Source: a virus
Virus record (IMG/VR): IMGVR_UViG_3300008464_000004
Coordinates: 1 to 31,966 of that record
Strand: one strand, 5' to 3'
Length of the DNA: 31,966 bases
Shown: piece by piece, positions 606-16,684 of the stretch
Numbering within the stretch: position 1 is the stretch's first letter
Layout of the letters: each line of letters starts with the position of its first letter
The notes under the pieces: generated by a model
The model's database searches: none
What the model was told of the DNA's origin: nothing
Seen by the model: only the letters and a program-made list of their open reading frames with translations
Program-made: the position numbers and the translations under genes

Positions 606-1037
606 TTATTGTTCGACCTGGACTCGAATAGGCTTGATTCCGGCCGCATTTAGAAGTCCCAAGGCTTGCATGTTTTCCTCATACCAGGAGGAGCTAATCT
701 TAGGCTCTGGACAGTGTGCTGTAGTGATGCCTGCTTGGATCATAGCCTTAGCACAATCTAAGCAAGGAGCTTTGGTACAGTACATCGTCCAGCCAGTGAG
801 GTCACGTCGGGCATTAACAATGGCATTGACTTCAGCGTGTACAGTTAGTGCAAGCTTCTTGTCTTTGTCCATCATAGTATAACCATCGTAAATCCCAGTA
901 GGGAAGCCATTATAGCCGACTGTAAACAATCGCTTATCAGTACTAACAATAACAGCTCCAACCTTACAGTCAGGGTCCTTACTCCACGACGCAGCTTCCT
1001 GAGCTAACGCCATGAACCGCTTAGTCCACTTATCCAT
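606..1037 (-). CDS. dCMP deaminase (zinc-dependent)
   Basis: 143 aa, a normal length for phage deoxycytidylate deaminases. It converts dCMP to dUMP, the substrate for thymidylate synthesis. The zinc site is complete: H67-A-E69 (E is the proton shuttle) and P-C92-x-x-C95. The substrate loop GYNGFP is at residues 41-46. The start overlaps the end of the dNMP kinase gene by 8 nt, so the two are probably translationally coupled. It is the last gene of a leftward nucleotide operon, followed by a terminator. T4 gene cd is the functional counterpart. In the context of the TS-like gene at 2088, it would divert cytosine nucleotides towards dTMP while others are modified. Family assignment is secure; allosteric control by dCTP or a modified dCTP is not readable here. 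Confidence 0.95.
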   Translation of the reverse strand: MDKWTKRFMALAQEAASWSKDPDCKVGAVIVSTDKRLFTVGYNGFPTGIYDGYTMMDKDKKLALTVHAEVNAIVNARRDLTGWTMYCTKAPCLDCAKAMIQAGITTAHCPEPKISSSWYEENMQALGLLNAAGIKPIRVQVEQ

Positions 1038-1527
1038 TCTTCAGTACCTCTACTAGACGATCAAGCCTAGCTAAGAACTCACCACCGGTACCGTTGTTCT
1101 GAATCTTGATCCAGGCTGGGTGATACCTTAGTTGCATAGACTCAGCAGGTTCAGGTGCTACGCGGCTCATAGCATTGATCCAGATAACAGTAACCTTGAA
1201 CTCTTCGGTCACAGCGTCGCACTCATCCTGAGCTCTGATACCACAGTAGATGTCATTGCTAGCATAGATCAGACGACCTAACTTAGCTTTGTCATCTTTG
1301 CAGTAGTCAGCAATCAAGTCATGCCACTCCGCTCGGTGGTTTACTCGATCTTCAAAGCACTGTTCTGAAGTAGTGTAGCCGTACTTATCCTTGAGAGCGT
1401 CAAAGATAAAAGCATCGCAACACACTTGTGAAGACCCTGCGTAGGTGAGACCCAGCTTTTCAGCTAGGTACTCCGCCGCAGTGTCTTTACCATGACGAGC
1501 ATGGCCTAAGACAAGGATTTTACGCAT
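1030..1527 (-). CDS. deoxynucleoside monophosphate kinase
   Basis: 165 aa P-loop kinase. The N-terminal strand runs straight into the Walker A sequence GHARHGKDT (residues 8-16), in the G-x4-GK[DT]T form typical of phage dNMP kinases and dephospho-CoA-kinase-like enzymes. An R-rich lid (RVNHRAEWHD) and a C-terminal ...IWINAMSRV region follow. It would phosphorylate dNMPs to dNDPs. T4 gp1 does this for dTMP, dGMP and 5-hydroxymethyl-dCMP. It starts on the TAATG that ends the upstream NTP-PPase gene and overlaps dCMP deaminase by 8 nt. This position beside a dCMP-type TS homolog makes a role with modified dCMP plausible, but substrate range cannot be read from sequence. Confidence 0.85.
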   Translation of the reverse strand: MRKILVLGHARHGKDTAAEYLAEKLGLTYAGSSQVCCDAFIFDALKDKYGYTTSEQCFEDRVNHRAEWHDLIADYCKDDKAKLGRLIYASNDIYCGIRAQDECDAVTEEFKVTVIWINAMSRVAPEPAESMQLRYHPAWIKIQNNGTGGEFLARLDRLVEVLKNG

Positions 1528-2081
1528 TAATGAGTGACCTCGGGAATAATGGAGTTAAGTAACTTCTGCAGGCGTGGCTCAGGAGCAACAAAGGAAGAAC
1601 CCTTATCTACATTAGCTTTGACATCAGACGCAGTCTTCTTAGCCGGCTTAGTATCGTTAGCATCACATACAATGTTCATTGCTGCTTCACACTGTGATTG
1701 GTTAAAGCCCATAGACAACATCATTAACTGAGCTACGCCTAGCACTTTGTACATCGCAGACTCAGGGTCTGTTTCAGCTTCAGCTAATATAGGGTATAGC
1801 AGTGACATAGGGTGTACAATAACACCATGTGCCATTACTGCTTCAACCACTCGTACGGCTTGTACTGCGCCTTCAGCGTTTAGCTCAATACCCATCTTCC
1901 ATAAACCACCCATAGCTAAATAGGTAAGATCACATACCGCGTCTAGCTCGTCAACTGGTGTGTCAGCATCAAAGAACTCTTGCAGCTCTTCAGCTAGCAG
2001 TTTGATCGTCAGTTCGTGGTTGTACTCTTGATCATAACGTGCGGCGTTCCAGCCAGCGACTCTTTTAAATACCATTAACAT
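1527..2081 (-). CDS. MazG-like all-alpha NTP pyrophosphohydrolase
   Basis: 184 aa. The N-terminal half carries the acidic pattern of the all-alpha NTP-PPase fold: LLAEELQEFFDA (E31, E32, E35) and then DELDAVCDLTYLAMG (D47, D51), which bind Mg2+ and hydrolyse an NTP/dNTP to the monophosphate plus PPi. A second, helical half contains AMNIVCDANDTKP, a pattern common in phage phosphoribosyl-ATP-pyrophosphatase-like proteins. The C-terminus is Lys- and Pro-rich. The gene lies 6 nt after the TS-like gene and shares a TAATG junction with the kinase. T4 dCTPase (gp56) belongs to the same broad fold class, so dCTP removal is a reasonable inference here. A general house-cleaning role is the alternative. 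An internal ATG at 2075 could be the start instead. Confidence 0.72.
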   Translation of the reverse strand: MLMVFKRVAGWNAARYDQEYNHELTIKLLAEELQEFFDADTPVDELDAVCDLTYLAMGGLWKMGIELNAEGAVQAVRVVEAVMAHGVIVHPMSLLYPILAEAETDPESAMYKVLGVAQLMMLSMGFNQSQCEAAMNIVCDANDTKPAKKTASDVKANVDKGSSFVAPEPRLQKLLNSIIPEVTH

Positions 2082-2087
2082 AATAAC

Positions 2088-2888
2088 TTATCCGTGTAGT
2101 TTGAATTTGATTGCAGGTTGAGGGCTGTAAGACCCAAGTCGTAGTTTACTAGGTTCGAACTCACAGAAGTCTTCACCTTTAGTTGCGTAGAACCATGGTA
2201 CCATAGCCAACACAACGTCTTCACACTGGGCGATGTACTTGTGAGCACCTTCAACGTGATCAGTGTATATGTGGGTATCACCGAAGTCCATCTTAACACG
2301 TCCAGGAGTAAACCCAAACTCTGCAGCGATAGCGATTAACCAGGCTCCAGCTAAGATAAAGTCTGATGGCATGCCAACCATGGTATCAACTGAGCGTTGA
2401 GTCCATACCATGCTAATAATACCACTCTCAGTCACGTGGAACTGATATGAGTAGTGGCAGCAAGGTAGTGACAGTTCACTTAGCTTGTTTGGTCGCCATG
2501 CATTGATAATCATACGTCGATTCGACGGGTCATTCTTTAGCTTATCCTTTAGATCAGCGATCTGGTCAGAGCCTTCAAAGTCAAACCAGGCGTTACCGTA
2601 GTCAAGGTTTAGCTGACCATTCTCATCAGCCCATTGTCCCCAATAGTTACAGCCCCAATCTTTGAAGTCCTGCACACACTTAGGCTGACGTAACAAAGCA
2701 GCAAGCTCACCAAGTACACCGTCAGGAAACATCTTACGACCTGATAGTAACGGGAAGCCATTACGCAAGTCAAACTCAATGCTTGTACCAAATATAGACA
2801 TTGTTTCTTGGTTACGAGTCTCACGACGCTCACCGGCCATCAATACTGTAAGCACTAGGTCTTTGTAGTCTTTCTCAAACTGTTCCAT
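2088..2888 (-). CDS. thymidylate-synthase-family enzyme with Asp at the base-reading site; probable dCMP hydroxymethylase/methylase
   Basis: 266 aa, full length for the family and alignable end to end with E. coli ThyA. Seen: phosphate-loop Arg near residues 22-25, E61, W83/W86 in WGQWADENG, Y97, R124/R125, catalytic Cys144 in LPCCH, Q164-R165-S166-x-D168, and H206/Y208 in DTHIY. The decisive difference is at residue 176. ThyA has GLPFN (Asn177, which hydrogen-bonds uracil); this protein has GMPSD. Asp at this position is found in T4 dCMP hydroxymethylase (Asp179), and Asn-to-Asp in Lactobacillus casei TS is known to switch preference from dUMP to dCMP. I therefore infer dCMP as substrate, giving 5-hydroxymethyl- or 5-methyl-dCMP from methylene-tetrahydrofolate. 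An annotation pipeline would call it thyA. It overlaps the preceding small gene by TAATG. Confidence 0.8.
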   Translation of the reverse strand: MEQFEKDYKDLVLTVLMAGERRETRNQETMSIFGTSIEFDLRNGFPLLSGRKMFPDGVLGELAALLRQPKCVQDFKDWGCNYWGQWADENGQLNLDYGNAWFDFEGSDQIADLKDKLKNDPSNRRMIINAWRPNKLSELSLPCCHYSYQFHVTESGIISMVWTQRSVDTMVGMPSDFILAGAWLIAIAAEFGFTPGRVKMDFGDTHIYTDHVEGAHKYIAQCEDVVLAMVPWFYATKGEDFCEFEPSKLRLGSYSPQPAIKFKLHG

Positions 2889-3097
2889 TATTGTCCACCT
2901 ATGTCATGAGTTGTCACTACAGCGCCGACACTACCAGTTGTCGGTTGTTCACGTTCGTACTTGTCCATAATAAGGTCAAGTGCTTGGCCAATCTCACTAC
3001 AAGCGTGGCTTAAACCTGCTCTGCCTGGTTCACGGCTTTGAAATTGCACCAAAAACCCTGATTCTTGCTCGTCAATAAAAACATTAAGCTTGCCCAT
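2888..3097 (-). CDS. small conserved-context protein of unknown function
   Basis: 69 aa, no family recognised. It is mildly acidic, with a beta-like N-terminus (MGKLNVFIDEQESGFLVQFQ) and a helix around QALDLIMDKYEREQ. It has no cysteine cluster, signal peptide or membrane segment. A good ribosome site (GGAG, 7 nt before the ATG) and tight packing support it as real. It overlaps the end of the DNA polymerase gene by 14 nt and its stop overlaps the start of the TS-like gene (TAATG). Position suggests a replication or nucleotide accessory role, but nothing in the sequence shows which. Confidence 0.7.
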   Translation of the reverse strand: MGKLNVFIDEQESGFLVQFQSREPGRAGLSHACSEIGQALDLIMDKYEREQPTTGSVGAVVTTHDIGGQ

Positions 3098-4808
3098 CTA
3101 CTTTCTCCAACATCGCCATTCCGTCTAGCGAGTAATTCCAAAGGTCAGGAACGTCATCATCTTCAATGTCGCCCCAGTTAAAACCAACCGAAACATCGAC
3201 TGGCATAGGAAGGTCTTTAATGGCAAACAACTTGCTCATTTCAAACCAACCCTCTTGCATGCATTCCGCCATCTTCTTAGCTAAAGGCTCGTAGATCGCA
3301 GGATCATTAGGACAGTCAACAATGAAGCTATCGTGGATGAAGTTAACTAAGTAAGCGTCGTCCTTCTTAGCTTCTTCTAACGCTGGACCAAAGTAGTGTA
3401 GCGCTAGCTTTGCAACTTCTGCTGCACTTCCCTGGTTCTCAATGTTAAGCTGATCAGTCATCATCTTACCTTTGTAGGTACGACCTAGGGCTGTAGAGCC
3501 TAAACGACCTTTACGCCACTGTGAGATACCACGCTCTTGCCAAGCATAGATTTCTTTCCAAAGGTTACGCCAGCGCGCTCTATCCTTATTTGCCTGGCGT
3601 TCAGTTATTAGCATGTCTGCTGTCTCAATAAGTATCGAGATGAGCATTGCTATACCACCACCGTATAAGAACGAGAAGTTGTAGGTCTTACTTAGTTGAC
3701 GCTGAGCTTTTGTCCAGGCTTCACCAAATAACATGTTAGCTGTGAACCCGTGTAAATCCTCGCCCTTACGGAATAGCTCTTCCATCATAACACAAGTGGT
3801 AATCGCACATATCGTACGTAGTTCCACCTGAGCATAGTCAGCGTAGACAAATACGCGACCAGCATCTTCAGGGTAGCCAAACACACCTTTAGTTGAGCGT
3901 GGTAGCTGCTGAAGGTTTTGATCCTTAGATGTCAAGCGACCTGAGCGTGCAGACGGCAGGAACTTGCCGTAGATACGACCATCATTAGTTTCGAACTTCT
4001 TTAAGAAGCTGTTTTGCTTAACTAACTTTCGCACGGTACGAACATTACCAGCACGCTCATTACCTTGAAGAGCAAACGTAGCTAAAGCTAAACCATCGGA
4101 CTCATTCTCACCAATGTAAGGTCGTACTTGCTGCCAGCTGTTAATATTAATAGGCATAGCGTAGCTTTTAATCTTAGCTTCATTAGCTTCGAATAGGGCG
4201 TTTAGCTTGTCCTGGTCTACAGGCATGCCGTTCCACTGGAAGTCTAAGCAACGGCGTACCGTAAGCATGTCCAGCTTATAACTTGGCGTGTCAATTACAG
4301 GACTAACGTTCTCCCACACAGCAGGCATGTAGTACACGTCAGTAGCAGCGTAGTGCAGCTGTTCTTCAGTGAGTACAGGCTTAGACCAGTCAGTCTTCTG
4401 TAGCTTAGTCTTATCCAAGCCCTGCTTGACATAAGGGTCATAACCAAGAGAGTAAGTCATTACTTGATCTAAGCTAAACTTCTCTTTCTCAGGGAAGGCT
4501 AGGCGAGCTAAGTATAATGTGTCCTCAAACTTAGCCGGAATCCAACGTGTGCCTGAAGTCTGTTGCATAGTTGTAATATCGTAGTGGCTGTTATGCCATA
4601 CAGTATTAAACTTGTTAAGCTCAGCCATCATCTCAAAGACGTTAGGCCACTCAACGAATAGCACTTCATCGAGTAAAGGTTGATATAACTGTAGAAGTCT
4701 TACTTTGCCGTAAAGACCACAGGTCTCAGTGTCCGCAAACACTGGTTGACCTGCGTCTAACTCCGACATCGCTTCTACTAGTTCTAGGATGCGATAGGGA
4801 GTCATCAT
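3084..4808 (-). CDS. family-A DNA polymerase with 3'-5' exonuclease
   Basis: 574 aa, shorter than T7 gp5 (704). The 3'-5' proofreading domain occupies about residues 20-165: ExoI D26-T-E28, ExoII HNSHYD (D77) and ExoIII Y153-AAT-D157. The polymerase domain follows. It has SGRLTSKDQNLQQLPR (289-304), motif A VYADYAQVELR (D324), motif B R370-x3-K374-x3-F378-x3-Y382 and motif C IHDSF (H492, D493). Residue 378 is Phe, the form that discriminates against dideoxynucleotides. Motif C has Ser494 where most family-A enzymes have Glu. There is no 5'-nuclease domain. The start shares TAATG with the upstream gene, and a second Met at codon 2 is possible. It is the replicative polymerase of the phage, working with the SSB, primase-helicase and helicase encoded upstream. 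Confidence 0.96.
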   Translation of the reverse strand: MMTPYRILELVEAMSELDAGQPVFADTETCGLYGKVRLLQLYQPLLDEVLFVEWPNVFEMMAELNKFNTVWHNSHYDITTMQQTSGTRWIPAKFEDTLYLARLAFPEKEKFSLDQVMTYSLGYDPYVKQGLDKTKLQKTDWSKPVLTEEQLHYAATDVYYMPAVWENVSPVIDTPSYKLDMLTVRRCLDFQWNGMPVDQDKLNALFEANEAKIKSYAMPININSWQQVRPYIGENESDGLALATFALQGNERAGNVRTVRKLVKQNSFLKKFETNDGRIYGKFLPSARSGRLTSKDQNLQQLPRSTKGVFGYPEDAGRVFVYADYAQVELRTICAITTCVMMEELFRKGEDLHGFTANMLFGEAWTKAQRQLSKTYNFSFLYGGGIAMLISILIETADMLITERQANKDRARWRNLWKEIYAWQERGISQWRKGRLGSTALGRTYKGKMMTDQLNIENQGSAAEVAKLALHYFGPALEEAKKDDAYLVNFIHDSFIVDCPNDPAIYEPLAKKMAECMQEGWFEMSKLFAIKDLPMPVDVSVGFNWGDIEDDDVPDLWNYSLDGMAMLEKVDGQA

Positions 4809-5422
4809 TATAGACGCACCAACTTAGATGTTTCAGTGCGTTCTTCTTCAGTGAGGTTGTTCATAACGTCATCACGAAGCTCTGCACGACGCTTACGGAC
4901 AGTTGCTACACGTAACTTCTCCATTAGCTTGTTTTCCATCTCCAAGCATTGGTCGAAGTGTGTAGTGTCGATCTTTTGCACGATCCAAGCGTAGCGGATA
5001 TTAGGATCAAGGTCAACTTCTAAAGGATCAAGGATCGATACAACTTCAACGATCTTTAGCTCAGTATTTTTAACCCATACAGCAACTTTATCACCAAGCT
5101 CAAGGTCGGTAAGTAGTGTTTTATACGAGTAAGACTTGGTGCCAGTGTAAGGTGCAAAAACAACGTTGACGATTTTGAAGTCAGGGTTTTCAGATAGAAC
5201 TGTGTCGGTCATTTGCATTTTATAGTCTCCTAAGACTGTAGTATTAGTTTCTTCAATTTGGGTTTTCTTAGCTACGGAAGCTTCCCAGCGGTCGAACTCT
5301 TTAGGTGAGATAGACGCTAGTGCTTCTTGTTGCTTACGAGACAGAAAGCCTCGCTCTTTATAGAATTCTTGTAGTGAGCGAATAAAGCCAGCATCACTCA
5401 TATCTTTACGTGGTTCGTTCAT
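4808..5422 (-). CDS. two-part protein of unknown function, possibly two fused or nested genes
   Basis: 204 aa. Residues about 10-55 are helical and basic (FIRSLQEFYKERGFLSRKQQEAL), a segment seen at the start of several phage replication-region proteins. Residues about 75-155 are beta-rich with a GDKVAVWV strand pair and end in YAWIVQKID. A charged C-terminal helix follows. The junction around residues 58-70 (EETNTTVLGDYK) is the translation of a sequence that nearly copies the gene's own leader, including AGTCTTAGGAGACTATAAA directly before ATG at 5218. The beta domain therefore has a complete ribosome site of its own, and translation from 5218 would give a protein of 136 aa. No function is recognised. 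It lies between SSB and DNA polymerase and overlaps the latter by TAATG. Confidence 0.75.
   Translation of the reverse strand: MNEPRKDMSDAGFIRSLQEFYKERGFLSRKQQEALASISPKEFDRWEASVAKKTQIEETNTTVLGDYKMQMTDTVLSENPDFKIVNVVFAPYTGTKSYSYKTLLTDLELGDKVAVWVKNTELKIVEVVSILDPLEVDLDPNIRYAWIVQKIDTTHFDQCLEMENKLMEKLRVATVRKRRAELRDDVMNNLTEEERTETSKLVRL
5220..5245 (-). repeat. internal copy of the gene leader with ribosome site
   Basis: On the minus strand this reads CTAATACTACAGTCTTAGGAG then ACTATAAA and ATG (5216-5218). The leader of the enclosing ORF at 5424-5452 reads CTAATAATAGAGTCTTAAGGAGACTATAAAC before ATG 5422. The two differ by a few bases and one indel. GGAG is 8-9 nt from the ATG in both. This copy lies inside the coding frame and would drive internal initiation. 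Confidence 0.7.
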
Positions 5423-5455
5423 GTTTATAGTCTCCTTAAGACTCTATTATTAGAA

Positions 5456-5478
5456 CCTAGCACTCGTTAGAGGCTAGG
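5456..5478 (-). terminator. weak hairpin between SSB gene and the 4808-5422 gene
   Basis: Inverted repeat CCTAGC ... GCTAGG with an inner CTC/GAG pair and GTTA loop, one bulged A. On the minus strand it is followed by TTCTAATAAT rather than a solid T run. It could be a partial terminator or an RNA-processing hairpin that lowers downstream expression relative to SSB. The duplicated leader follows it directly. Confidence 0.4.
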
Positions 5479-5494
5479 CTTATTCTACTTCTTG

Positions 5495-6154
5495 CTACAG
5501 ACGAGGCTTGCTAGCAGGCTCTGACTTTTCTTCAGCTTGCTCTTCATGCACGCCTTCGAAAGTATCGTCTTCACCAGTCCAACCGCCTTCTTCGTCTTCA
5601 TCCGCTTCAAAACCAGCGTCTTCAGAGTACACTTCAAGCTTGCTGATCTGGATCGCGTTCAAGTAGAACGTTACACCTGCATCAACAATTTGACCTTGCT
5701 TTGACTTGGTGGTGTAGATGTCGAAAGAACCAGACACCTTACCAGTAGAGCCATTGCCGATCTTAGTAGCACCTAACGCAACTTCTTTACCTTTAGCATT
5801 GTACGTCTTAACCAAGATAGGTGAACCATCAGGCCAAGTAACGCCAGTTTTAAACGCTAAGATAAAGTTACCGGTAGGCTCTTTAATAGCTTCGCCGTCT
5901 TCATCAGTTTCACCGGTTTTCTTCATCTGCGGGTATAAACCAGTAGACTTAGGAACCTTAACTTTCTTAGGACGATGTTCTTGCCAGAAAGCTTCAATCT
6001 TAGCTGCGATCTCGTCTGCTTGCTCGGCAGTGAGCACTAGCGAGGCGACATACTGCATTTTGCCAGATAAGTTTTCTTTGCCTTCACCAGTAATAGTTAC
6101 CCATTCTAGTGAACCTTTAGGAGACATGAACTTTTGTAGTGTTTGTGATGCCAT
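5495..6154 (-). CDS. single-stranded DNA-binding protein, T7 gp2.5/DUF2815-like
   Basis: 219 aa from the preferred ATG at 6154 (MASQTLQKFMSPKGSLEW). The open frame extends to 6199, but the added residues do not look like the family's N-terminus. The beta-rich body has YVASLVL, KVPKSTGLYPQMKK, GNFILAFKTGV and IVDAGVTFYLNAIQISKL, consistent with a single OB fold. The C-terminal ~45 residues are strongly acidic (DEDEEGGWTGEDDTFEG), as in T7 gp2.5, where the tail recruits polymerase and helicase-primase. Unusually the last residues are basic (SKPRL). It binds ssDNA at the fork. It is the first gene after the promoter at 6251-6278 and lies upstream of polymerase, fitting high expression. Family by pattern; fold unconfirmed. 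Confidence 0.8.
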   Translation of the reverse strand: MASQTLQKFMSPKGSLEWVTITGEGKENLSGKMQYVASLVLTAEQADEIAAKIEAFWQEHRPKKVKVPKSTGLYPQMKKTGETDEDGEAIKEPTGNFILAFKTGVTWPDGSPILVKTYNAKGKEVALGATKIGNGSTGKVSGSFDIYTTKSKQGQIVDAGVTFYLNAIQISKLEVYSEDAGFEADEDEEGGWTGEDDTFEGVHEEQAEEKSEPASKPRL

Positions 6155-6250
6155 TGTCGTATTTACTCTTAGTTGTCGTACATTGTGACCTGCCAACATG
6201 ACAGGCCTTTGGTTTAATCTTTAGAAACTGTTGTCTCAAAAGATGAATCT

Positions 6251-6278
6251 ATTATGCCATGTATAATGAATTTGTTAA
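6251..6278 (-). promoter_or_regulatory. promoter for the SSB-polymerase-nucleotide operon
   Basis: On the minus strand TTAACA (6273-6278) and CATAAT (6251-6256) are 16 nt apart, with TG one base upstream of the -10. Its 15-nt -35 region GTTATTTAACAAATT is identical to that of the promoter at 471-499. It sits between the helicase and SSB genes and would raise SSB and polymerase expression within the leftward block. Confidence 0.65.
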
Positions 6279-6299
6279 ATAACGTTTTGGAATAAAAAC

Positions 6300-7613
6300 T
6301 CAATTCGTTATAACGGAGTCAGAAGCCCTTGATAGAGCTACATACATGAGCTTTAAATATACTATGTAGTTGATGTCTGCAGCTATTCCTAGATCATCGC
6401 TGTCCAGGAATACCGTGTGGTATGTGCTACCCTGGCTCTTATGCACAGTCATAGCGTGCGCAAAGTCTAAGCAGATACAACACTCGTTAAAGCTAAGGTA
6501 ATCCCGCCATGCCTTGGCTCTAGCCCGTGCGAGCTTAGTCTTAGGGTTAGCTTTGGCCCAACCAGCTGCCTTGTGTCCTGGGTTAGCTCGCTCAATAGCC
6601 ATGTTACTATCAGCTGCAGCCTTGATTAGCTTATCAGTGTATAGCTTGTACTGGTAGTGGCCAAATATAGCACAGTAAGCGCGTACGTCACCTTCTTCAT
6701 CGATGAGTTCAACAAACTTATAGTCGTTGTTCTTCAACAAGTACTCAAGAGTCTTGAACTTACTGCACAAACCCAAGTTATCACCAAATGGTAGCTCAAT
6801 CTGGAAGACATCGTTATGCAACACTACATTGTGGAAGGAGTAGCGCTCACGCATCGTAGGACTGAAGACTTCATCTCCTACCTTAGGTAAGCCGTAACCC
6901 TGTACTTCTGCATTCAAGTTCTCTACACGCTTGTTTGTGTATGCAAGCATAACTTTATCATCAGTACAAGCCTTATAGCCTGCTATGATGTCCTGGTCAC
7001 GCTTAAACTTGTCACTAGTAACTAACTGCTCAGCTTCTCCGCCACTAATAAAGCTAACTAACTGGTTCAACGGTGTCATCAGCGGGTTATCCGCAGCTTG
7101 ACGGTATATCTTAGTTAACGTTATCGCGTACTTACCACTGGGCTTAATAGACTGCTGGTCGTTTACTGGAGGCAACTGATTAGGGTCACCGAGCCACACA
7201 ACACGCATCTCAGGGTTACCATCGTAGTCTTCGTCTTGAAGAGCACGTATGTCCATAAGATGCTTCTCACCAACCATTGAGTACTCATCGATAAACAGGA
7301 TTGAAGACTTATCGCCTTCACCAGAGCTGATCGTAGTCTGTACATGCTTGTGGTTAGTTGCATGTTGGTTAACACCAGGACGACGCTTAAGCAAGCTGTC
7401 CAAGGTACGTATGTTAGACCCCACAGGTAGTTTCTCCCGTAGGATACCACAAGCCTTGTGAGTGAAGGCACAGACTGTATAGTCTATGTCCTCATCCTTA
7501 CAGTATTGTACCAGGGTAGCCAGGTCTGTAGTCTTACCAGTACCTGCCTGCCCAGTGATATACATGTCCCATGCATTGCTATCTGCGTAGAACGCTTTGA
7601 AGGTTTTAAGCAT
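6300..7613 (-). CDS. SF1 DNA helicase, Dda/RecD-like
   Basis: 437 aa from ATG 7613, chosen because AAGGAG lies 7 nt upstream; the frame itself extends to 7652. Domain 1A has Walker A ITGQAGTGKTT (residues 19-29) and motif Ia CAFTHKACGIL. Walker B is ILFIDEYSMV, motif III is VWLGDPNQLPPV, and motif IV-type IYRQAADNPL follows. Domain 2A ends with VHKSQGSTYHTVFLD and YVALSRAS, the UvrD-type motifs V and VI. The order and spacing match Dda/RecD family 5'-3' SF1B helicases. It likely clears proteins from DNA or restarts forks during replication. Its start overlaps the end of the upstream 53-aa gene by 8 nt. Confidence 0.9.
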   Translation of the reverse strand: MLKTFKAFYADSNAWDMYITGQAGTGKTTDLATLVQYCKDEDIDYTVCAFTHKACGILREKLPVGSNIRTLDSLLKRRPGVNQHATNHKHVQTTISSGEGDKSSILFIDEYSMVGEKHLMDIRALQDEDYDGNPEMRVVWLGDPNQLPPVNDQQSIKPSGKYAITLTKIYRQAADNPLMTPLNQLVSFISGGEAEQLVTSDKFKRDQDIIAGYKACTDDKVMLAYTNKRVENLNAEVQGYGLPKVGDEVFSPTMRERYSFHNVVLHNDVFQIELPFGDNLGLCSKFKTLEYLLKNNDYKFVELIDEEGDVRAYCAIFGHYQYKLYTDKLIKAAADSNMAIERANPGHKAAGWAKANPKTKLARARAKAWRDYLSFNECCICLDFAHAMTVHKSQGSTYHTVFLDSDDLGIAADINYIVYLKLMYVALSRASDSVITN

Positions 7614-14140: not shown

Positions 14141-14635
14141 CTAAGCAGCAATACCGCGATTCATGTTATCGTCTAAGCACTCTTCAAGAGTGGTAAAACC
14201 ATAACCGTCTTCACGAGGCTCACGAGCTTTACGAGCTTCTTCGATCTCAGCCATAACAGCTGGTAAGTCAGAAGCAGCAACTTCTTCGTTAGCTACATCT
14301 TGTAGTAACTGTGCACTTGAAGCTTTAGCAACACGTTCTTGCTTCGTCCACTTGCTCACACCGTCTTTACACATGCTGTTGAAGCCAGTAGCAGATGATG
14401 CTTTCTTACCAAACTCAGCAACTTCTGGAGACATCCAAGTGCCGTGGTAGTAACACTGAACAGCAACGATAACACCGTCTTCGTTCTTATGGAAGGTAGT
14501 AGCTTTACCACCGCCGCCACCAGTCTTAGCGCTTGCAAGGGCGATAACCTGAGGTAAGATGTCACCAACAAGTTCGTTAGTGTTAGCTTGTAGTAATTCA
14601 ACGATCTCAACGTGTGCTTTCTTAATGTTTGACAT
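14141..14635 (-). CDS. small Cys/His protein, paralog A
   Basis: 164 aa. Clear paralog of the 173-aa gene at 16163-16684, with roughly half of aligned residues the same. Three parts: an N-terminal helix with ANTNELVGDILPQVIALASAK, a Gly-rich turn (KTGGGGGK), and a conserved core with CYYHGTW, EFGKKASSATGFNSMCKDGV and SKWTKQERVAK. A charged helical tail follows (AEIEEARKAREPRED). The Cys-x2-His with a later Cys may bind metal, but only three ligands are evident. No family name recognised. It has its own promoter (14676-14705) and terminator, so it is a single-gene unit and probably strongly expressed. The TGCACH-free, AT-rich leader and lack of a strong ribosome site (AGAAGAG) are notable. Confidence 0.75.
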   Translation of the reverse strand: MSNIKKAHVEIVELLQANTNELVGDILPQVIALASAKTGGGGGKATTFHKNEDGVIVAVQCYYHGTWMSPEVAEFGKKASSATGFNSMCKDGVSKWTKQERVAKASSAQLLQDVANEEVAASDLPAVMAEIEEARKAREPREDGYGFTTLEECLDDNMNRGIAA

Positions 14636-16162: not shown

Positions 16163-16684
16163 CTAGTCTTCAGCTTCAGTGTTAACTTCGTCAGCGTCAG
16201 TACTTACTTGATCGAAAGCTTTGATAGTCTCATCAGCCGTGGAATACCCTTGAGCATCTTCACGAGCAACGATAACTTGCTTAGCTTCTTCAATCTCAGC
16301 TTGCTTGTCAGTCAAGTCACTTACTTCAATGTCACCGCTTGCAACGGCACTCAATAGTAAGCTCTCAGTCTTCTTAGCTACACGTTGTTGCTTAGTCCAA
16401 CGACTAACACCTTCCTTACACATGGTATTCAAACCACTTGCGGTGCCTTTCTTAGCTCCATATTCGCACTCACTTGTCAATTCCCACTGCTTGTGGTAGT
16501 AACAATAAACTGCGAATACTTCACCATTGTCATCTTTCAAGAACGTCTTACCAATGTCAGAACCACCGCTAGACTTAGCAGTCATTAGCTCCATCAATTG
16601 TGGCAAGATAGTCGATACTTTCTTGTTCTTATTAGCTTCAAGAAGTTCGGCGATTCCAACGTATGCTTTTTTGATAGTAGTCAT
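16163..16684 (-). CDS. small Cys/His protein, paralog B, inside the inverted repeat
   Basis: 173 aa, paralog of the 14141-14635 product. Shared core: TIKKAYVGIAELLEAN, ILPQLMELM, AVYCYYHKQW, EYGAKKGTASGLNTMCKEGV and SRWTKQQRVAK. The Gly turn is shorter and the C-terminal tail is longer and more acidic (DQVSTDADEVNTEAED). The Cys-x2-His with a following Cys may be a partial metal site. No named family recognised. It is the first gene behind the promoter at 16798-16826, with a ~110-nt leader. AAAGGA lies 9 nt before the ATG. Both paralogs stand as single-gene units with hairpins at their ends, which suggests abundant early products. A transcription-related or nucleoid role is a guess only. Confidence 0.75.
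   Translation of the reverse strand: MTTIKKAYVGIAELLEANKNKKVSTILPQLMELMTAKSSGGSDIGKTFLKDDNGEVFAVYCYYHKQWELTSECEYGAKKGTASGLNTMCKEGVSRWTKQQRVAKKTESLLLSAVASGDIEVSDLTDKQAEIEEAKQVIVAREDAQGYSTADETIKAFDQVSTDADEVNTEAED

Follow-up and report, generated by a model that had tools for sequence, protein, structure and literature searches.

The stretch of DNA analysed here (the window) is a 31,966-bp IMG/VR virus record with a gene set of the podovirus type, including a family A DNA polymerase, primase, terminase, portal and internal virion proteins. A run of genes on one strand encodes the DNA polymerase (PolA), a small unknown protein, a thymidylate synthase (TS) homolog, a MazG/PRA-PH protein, a deoxynucleoside-monophosphate (dNMP) kinase-like protein and a dCMP deaminase. 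The TS homolog (2088..2888, minus strand), predicted to be a dCMP 5-methylase from its match to PF00303, its residue table and an AlphaFold2 model, is a complete open reading frame of 266 aa with an ATG start. Upstream of it in the same run lies the polymerase gene (3084..4808, minus; PF00476, E=3.6e-36). The MazG/PRA-PH-type NTP pyrophosphohydrolase (1527..2081, minus; PF01503, E=4.9e-7; phrog_671, E=1.5e-14) is a candidate for cleaving dCTP or dUTP. The dNMP kinase-like protein (1030..1527, minus), with the P-loop GHARHGKDT, is a candidate modified-dCMP kinase that matches phrog_139 (dNMP kinase, E=3.1e-9), phrog_38514 (E=4.6e-29) and nothing significant in Pfam. The dCMP deaminase (606..1037, minus; PF00383, E=5.9e-22; phrog_174, E=2.2e-41) has the HAE and PCxxC zinc motifs and the GYNG allosteric motif. 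Elsewhere in the window, two minus-strand genes (14141-14635 and 16163-16684) both match the unknown family phrog_10459 near full length and represent a duplicated gene, and an edge-cut open frame (1 to about 530, minus) has a CxxC pair and, by eye, the look of an HNH nuclease.

Membership of the query in the TS superfamily is evident from the profile (PF00303; E=7.7e-58, 196 bits against a Pfam cut-off of 24), the fold and the catalytic Cys, Glu58, Arg166, His207 and Tyr209 of the family. The AlphaFold2 model (pLDDT 94.9) has TS as its best matches among solved structures (Z 34) and superimposes on ThyA with an rmsd of 1.4-1.5 A over 257 residues, tail included. In the numbering of the query, Cys144 (codon 2457..2459, minus, placed from the gene frame, with a clade-specific Cys143 just before it), Arg165-Ser166, Asp168, His206 and Tyr208 are all present and invariant among relatives, and the initial annotation was correct in describing the remaining catalytic residues as intact. 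Its warning that a routine homology search would hide the gene under thyA is borne out for automatic annotation, as the protein scores 136 bits with the NCBIfam thymidylate synthase model TIGR03284, above the cut-off of 108.

The substrate-choosing residue departs from this pattern. Alignment of GMPSD with GLPFN of the E. coli enzyme (the reference sequence is PDB chain 1aob, letter for letter) places Asp176 (codon 2361..2363, minus, likewise from the gene frame) at E. coli position 177, where canonical dUMP-specific TS has Asn and dCMP-using members of the family have Asp; the replacement of the uracil-reading Asn, claimed from the start, is thus confirmed. Asp occupied this position in 56 of 56 relatives in a first table and then in 99 of 101 distinct clade proteins, and Asp176 is therefore neither a sequencing slip nor chance. 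According to work cited in the MetaGPA study, TS becomes a dCMP methylase when Asn177 is changed to Asp. The study itself found an excess of Asp177 among the TSs of phage contigs with modified cytosine, positions 177 and 147 being the best residue markers of such TSs, and it found TS alongside PRA-PH and dCMP deaminase, in many cases specifically in the modified contigs (PMC8670742). These associated domains are all present in the window. From Asp177 and this precedent we infer dCMP as the substrate, which is very likely. The CMP hydroxymethylase MilA shares Asp at the base-reading position but differs in how it reads the sugar: at the positions that read deoxyribose, this CMP-preferring enzyme carries Ala (167) and Lys (126) (PMC5175136), with Ala176 and Lys133 serving for ribose, whereas the query keeps the deoxyribose residues Ser166 and Arg124. 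Judging from the sequence, the protein is probably an active TS-family enzyme directed at dCMP.

An ordinary thymidylate synthase that tolerates Asp177, still acts on dUMP and is paired with a dUMP-making dCMP deaminase would account for the TS-like fold, tail length, Leu143 and His147, for the usual dTMP pair of dCMP deaminase and TS, and for Asn177 in two clade members. His147 (E. coli numbering), the second MetaGPA marker position, is the ordinary TS residue in 101 of 101 clade proteins, which counts against the methylase reading; the position is Thr in T4 and Pro in AXL1. The ordinary-TS reading is nonetheless improbable, because Asn-to-Asp mutants at 177, as cited in PMC8670742, shift the preference to dCMP, and because Asp is kept in 99/101 proteins across deep divergence, along with the linked, clade-only Asp96 and Cys143.

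Scans of IMG/VR for relatives yielded first 51 and later 222 related stretches, of which 80 were kept, and GTDB contigs added 8 more. The clade proteins are about 35-58% identical to the query, and the isolates with the most similar TS are Pseudoalteromonas phage PH1, Dickeya phage Amaethon, Edwardsiella phage KF-1 and Vibrio phage VPMS1 (48-55% identity). Asp96, which precedes the catalytic Tyr97 and lies in or near the pocket, and Cys143, which precedes the catalytic Cys144, are found in 101/101 clade proteins, in which Cys144 and His145 are invariant too; other residues in or near the pocket that are fixed in the clade (E. coli numbering) are Tyr/Phe at 79, Trp163, found in 100/101, and Ser or Ala at 176, found in 99/101. 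The clade has a support of 100/100 in the tree and stands apart from T4 gp42 and from AXL1/DLP4, a separation that makes a repeated origin of Asp177 probable on phylogenetic grounds; at least three Asp/Asn changes (starred branches) are forced by the tree, although long branches may affect its deeper part. Descent shared with T4 gp42 was considered and rejected on the basis of 22% identity and the tree, in which gp42, Pikmin, Entb_45 and SPO1 form long branches.

Three archaeal-MAG sequences just outside the clade have Asn at 177. The two exceptions within it, L125 and L156, are nested tips whose Asn177 probably represents a return to the ancestral residue. Both genes (L125:1123-2022 and L156:5989-6822) carry Asn177 yet retain the clade-specific Cys and Asp; the L156 record has a DHFR gene, with no deaminase detected, and the two are possibly natural reversions to dUMP use. 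Another member, L096, has a 567-codon open frame (5089-6789) that fuses a 5'-3' exonuclease-like domain to the Asp177 TS. A second TS in MW202744, labelled 'bifunctional dihydrofolate reductase-thymidylate synthase' in GenBank (L008:329-1339), was rejected after a search with E. coli TS matched only the Asp177 gene of that locus, and the label at 329-1339 appears to be wrong.

The initial annotation proposed either a dCMP hydroxymethylase or a dCMP methylase, of which the direction towards dCMP stands and the methyl product is favoured; the hydroxymethyl alternative loses ground, as its signature is absent clade-wide and the methyl-transfer residues of TS are kept. In T4 dCMP hydroxymethylase, the hydroxyl-giving water is held by Asp145, which lies three residues ahead of the catalytic Cys (Cys-3), with Ser94, two ahead of the catalytic Tyr (Tyr-2), while Val replaces Trp83 of TS and the C-terminal tail is missing; the signature defined on the T4 enzyme is thus an acid at Cys-3 and Ser/Thr at Tyr-2 (PMC6400193). 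At Cys-3 the query has Leu141, with Leu in 101/101 clade proteins, and at Tyr-2 it has Leu95, with Val/Leu/Ile in 101/101. Its tail, ending ...AIKFKLHG, is of E. coli length, and Trp86 occupies E. coli position 83, where Trp is found in 96/101. Among the references, Cys-3 is Asp in T4, SPO1 dUMP hydroxymethylase and Pikmin and Glu in Entb_45, the function of these hydroxymethylase-type references being established for T4 and SPO1 only, and it is Leu in E. coli TS and Asn in AXL1. The query therefore shows the combination expected of a dCMP methylase of the Xp12 kind, namely Asp177 without the hydroxymethylase signature. Since this signature is absent in 101/101 proteins, while Leu143, a tail of TS length and, in most, Trp83 are kept, methylation is favoured over T4-type hydroxymethylation: a methyl product is likely, given a dCMP substrate, and the gene more likely than not codes for a dCMP methylase with 5-methyl-dCMP as its product, irrespective of where that product goes afterwards.

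The proposed enzyme would be a dCMP C5-methylase derived from thymidylate synthase. Asp176, in place of the uracil-reading Asn, would bond to cytosine at its amino group and at N3, Cys144 would attack C6, and Glu61 with the retained folate machinery would pass on the methylene. Hydride transfer, which a TS-like shield of Trp86 and Leu141 and a tail as long as that of TS presumably preserve, would then yield 5-methyl-dCMP instead of 5-hydroxymethyl-dCMP. If water rather than hydride resolved the methylene intermediate, the product would be 5-hydroxymethyl-dCMP, as with T4 gp42, and the DNA would contain hmC. Asp177 and the dNMP kinase-like and MazG-like neighbours match the logic of T4, hmC lay on one MetaGPA route (PMC8670742), and the non-standard polar tail and the change of Phe176 to Ser/Ala could admit water; the last tail residues of the clade are mostly polar, unlike VAI of E. 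coli, which could loosen the pocket and counts against the methylase. This outcome is nevertheless unlikely, as 0/101 proteins have the Cys-3 acid or Tyr-2 Ser/Thr, D145N alone abolished 5hm-dCMP in T4 (PMC6400193), the TS residues shielding the intermediate, Trp83 (96/101) and Leu143, are kept, and the tree position is far from gp42. No carbamoyltransferase or family 2 glycosyltransferase that could decorate a hydroxymethyl group was found in 46 relative records.

Among known enzymes, ThyA has 30% identity to the query, with all catalytic residues, Leu143, Trp83 and His147 in common, and with Asn177 changed to Asp, Val93 to Asp, Pro145 to Cys, Ile79 to Tyr, Phe176 to Ser and Leu163 to Trp. 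T4 gp42 (22% identity) shares Asp at the base-reading position and the catalytic Cys, Glu, Arg, His and Tyr, but has Asp145, Ser94, Val85, Thr after the Cys and no C-terminal tail, where the query has Leu, Leu, Trp, His and a tail. The Xp12 kind was represented by its relatives AXL1 and DLP4, which resemble the query in having Asp177, no Cys-3 acid, and adjoining genes for a dCMP deaminase and a nucleotide pyrophosphohydrolase. The DNA of AXL1, like that of the related 5mC phage Xp12, is resistant to most enzymes (PMC9206674). The AXL1 TS is, however, only about 24% identical to the query, lies on a separate branch, and has Pro147, Phe83, Asn at Cys-3 and another tail. From these sequences, convergence of the query clade on Xp12 as a dCMP methylase is favoured.

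The neighbouring genes, a MazG-type pyrophosphohydrolase, a dNMP kinase-like protein and a dCMP deaminase, fit a modified-dCMP pathway, in which the MazG-type enzyme would feed dCMP by cleaving dCTP (or dUTP), and the kinase-like protein would phosphorylate the methylated product. Among the 77 relative loci with enough flank, near-duplicates partly remaining, 61 have a MazG-like gene no more than 0.9 kb from TS, 48 have a deaminase no more than 2.6 kb away, and only 3 lack both; PolA was found in 47. Many Kolga-type loci have two MazG-like genes flanking TS, one of which matches DUF1599 ('nucleotide modification associated domain 1') weakly and for the most part below the cut-off. The 46 longer relative records contain exactly one TS each (46/46), with neither a second TS nor ThyX. 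DHFR, which would help a methylase that makes dihydrofolate, is above the cut-off in only 5 of these 46, and this counts against the reading. In KF-1, the deaminase domain and a domain of the dATP/dGTP diphosphohydrolase type (PF18909) form one fused gene (L003:17611-18219), a fusion matched in many relatives, whereas the window has a plain dCMP deaminase there.

As for the fate of 5-methyl-dCMP, the leading guess is use of 5-methyl-dC by the phage polymerase in DNA synthesis, by analogy with Xp12, in which it is incorporated (PMC7653180); given a dCMP substrate and a methyl product, we infer that entry as 5mC is somewhat more probable than another fate. The adjacent deaminase might instead turn 5-methyl-dCMP into dTMP, providing thymine without dUMP and with no need for DNA modification, a different fate of the same product that need not exclude 5mC incorporation. 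A deaminase within 2.6 kb of TS in 48/77 loci, present in 39/46 records and two genes away in the window, would suit such a route, as would the lack of canonical TS and ThyX in the relative records; moreover, 5-methyl-dCMP is a substrate of dCMP deaminases, and in Xp12 the deaminase converts 5-methyl-dCTP into dTTP (PMC12088426). It is still regarded as unlikely, because 7/46 records, that of VPMS1 included, show no deaminase, direct deamination of dCMP would compete for substrate, dTMP could come from host ThyA, and many Kolga-type loci have TS between MazG-type genes instead. More doubtful again is the idea that, in a sizeable family of podoviruses and SAR11-phage-like contigs, an independently arisen dCMP methylase forms, together with the phage deaminase and MazG, a uracil-free dTMP pathway (dCMP to 5-methyl-dCMP to dTMP) able to supply 5-methyl-dCTP as well, the ratio of methylase to deaminase setting the extent of genomic cytosine methylation.

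Published restriction data for clade phages comprise only a HhaI lane for VPMS1, in which digestion was reported, although 5mC should block HhaI (PMC4870561). The VPMS1 record has 148 GCGC sites, with no predicted HhaI fragment above 1.8 kb, and the digestion, for which the gel is known from text alone, may count against full replacement by 5mC. Palindrome avoidance, taken as a proxy for modified C in GATC counts, differs between genomes: PH1 (L002) and VPMS1 (L071) each have 3 GATC sites against about 80 expected (0.04), and the window has 104 against 106 (0.98).

On the strength of the fold, residues, lineage and gene neighbourhood shown here, the phages of this clade probably make 5-methyl-dCMP, for DNA protection or as a side road to thymine. 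Asp177 as a marker of cytosine-modified phages has already been published (PMC8670742), so the principle is known, and what is new here lies in how large and independent the lineage is and in the chemistry predicted for it. The cultured members Edwardsiella KF-1, Pseudoalteromonas PH1, Vibrio VPMS1 and Pelagibacter Kolga make the prediction testable. If it is true, DNA built from premade 5-methylcytosine, until now linked with Xp12 and its close relatives, would recur in common small podoviruses and SAR11-phage-like genomes, a separate Asn-to-Asp change would have reached the 5mC strategy, and these genes would have been misnamed thymidylate synthase.
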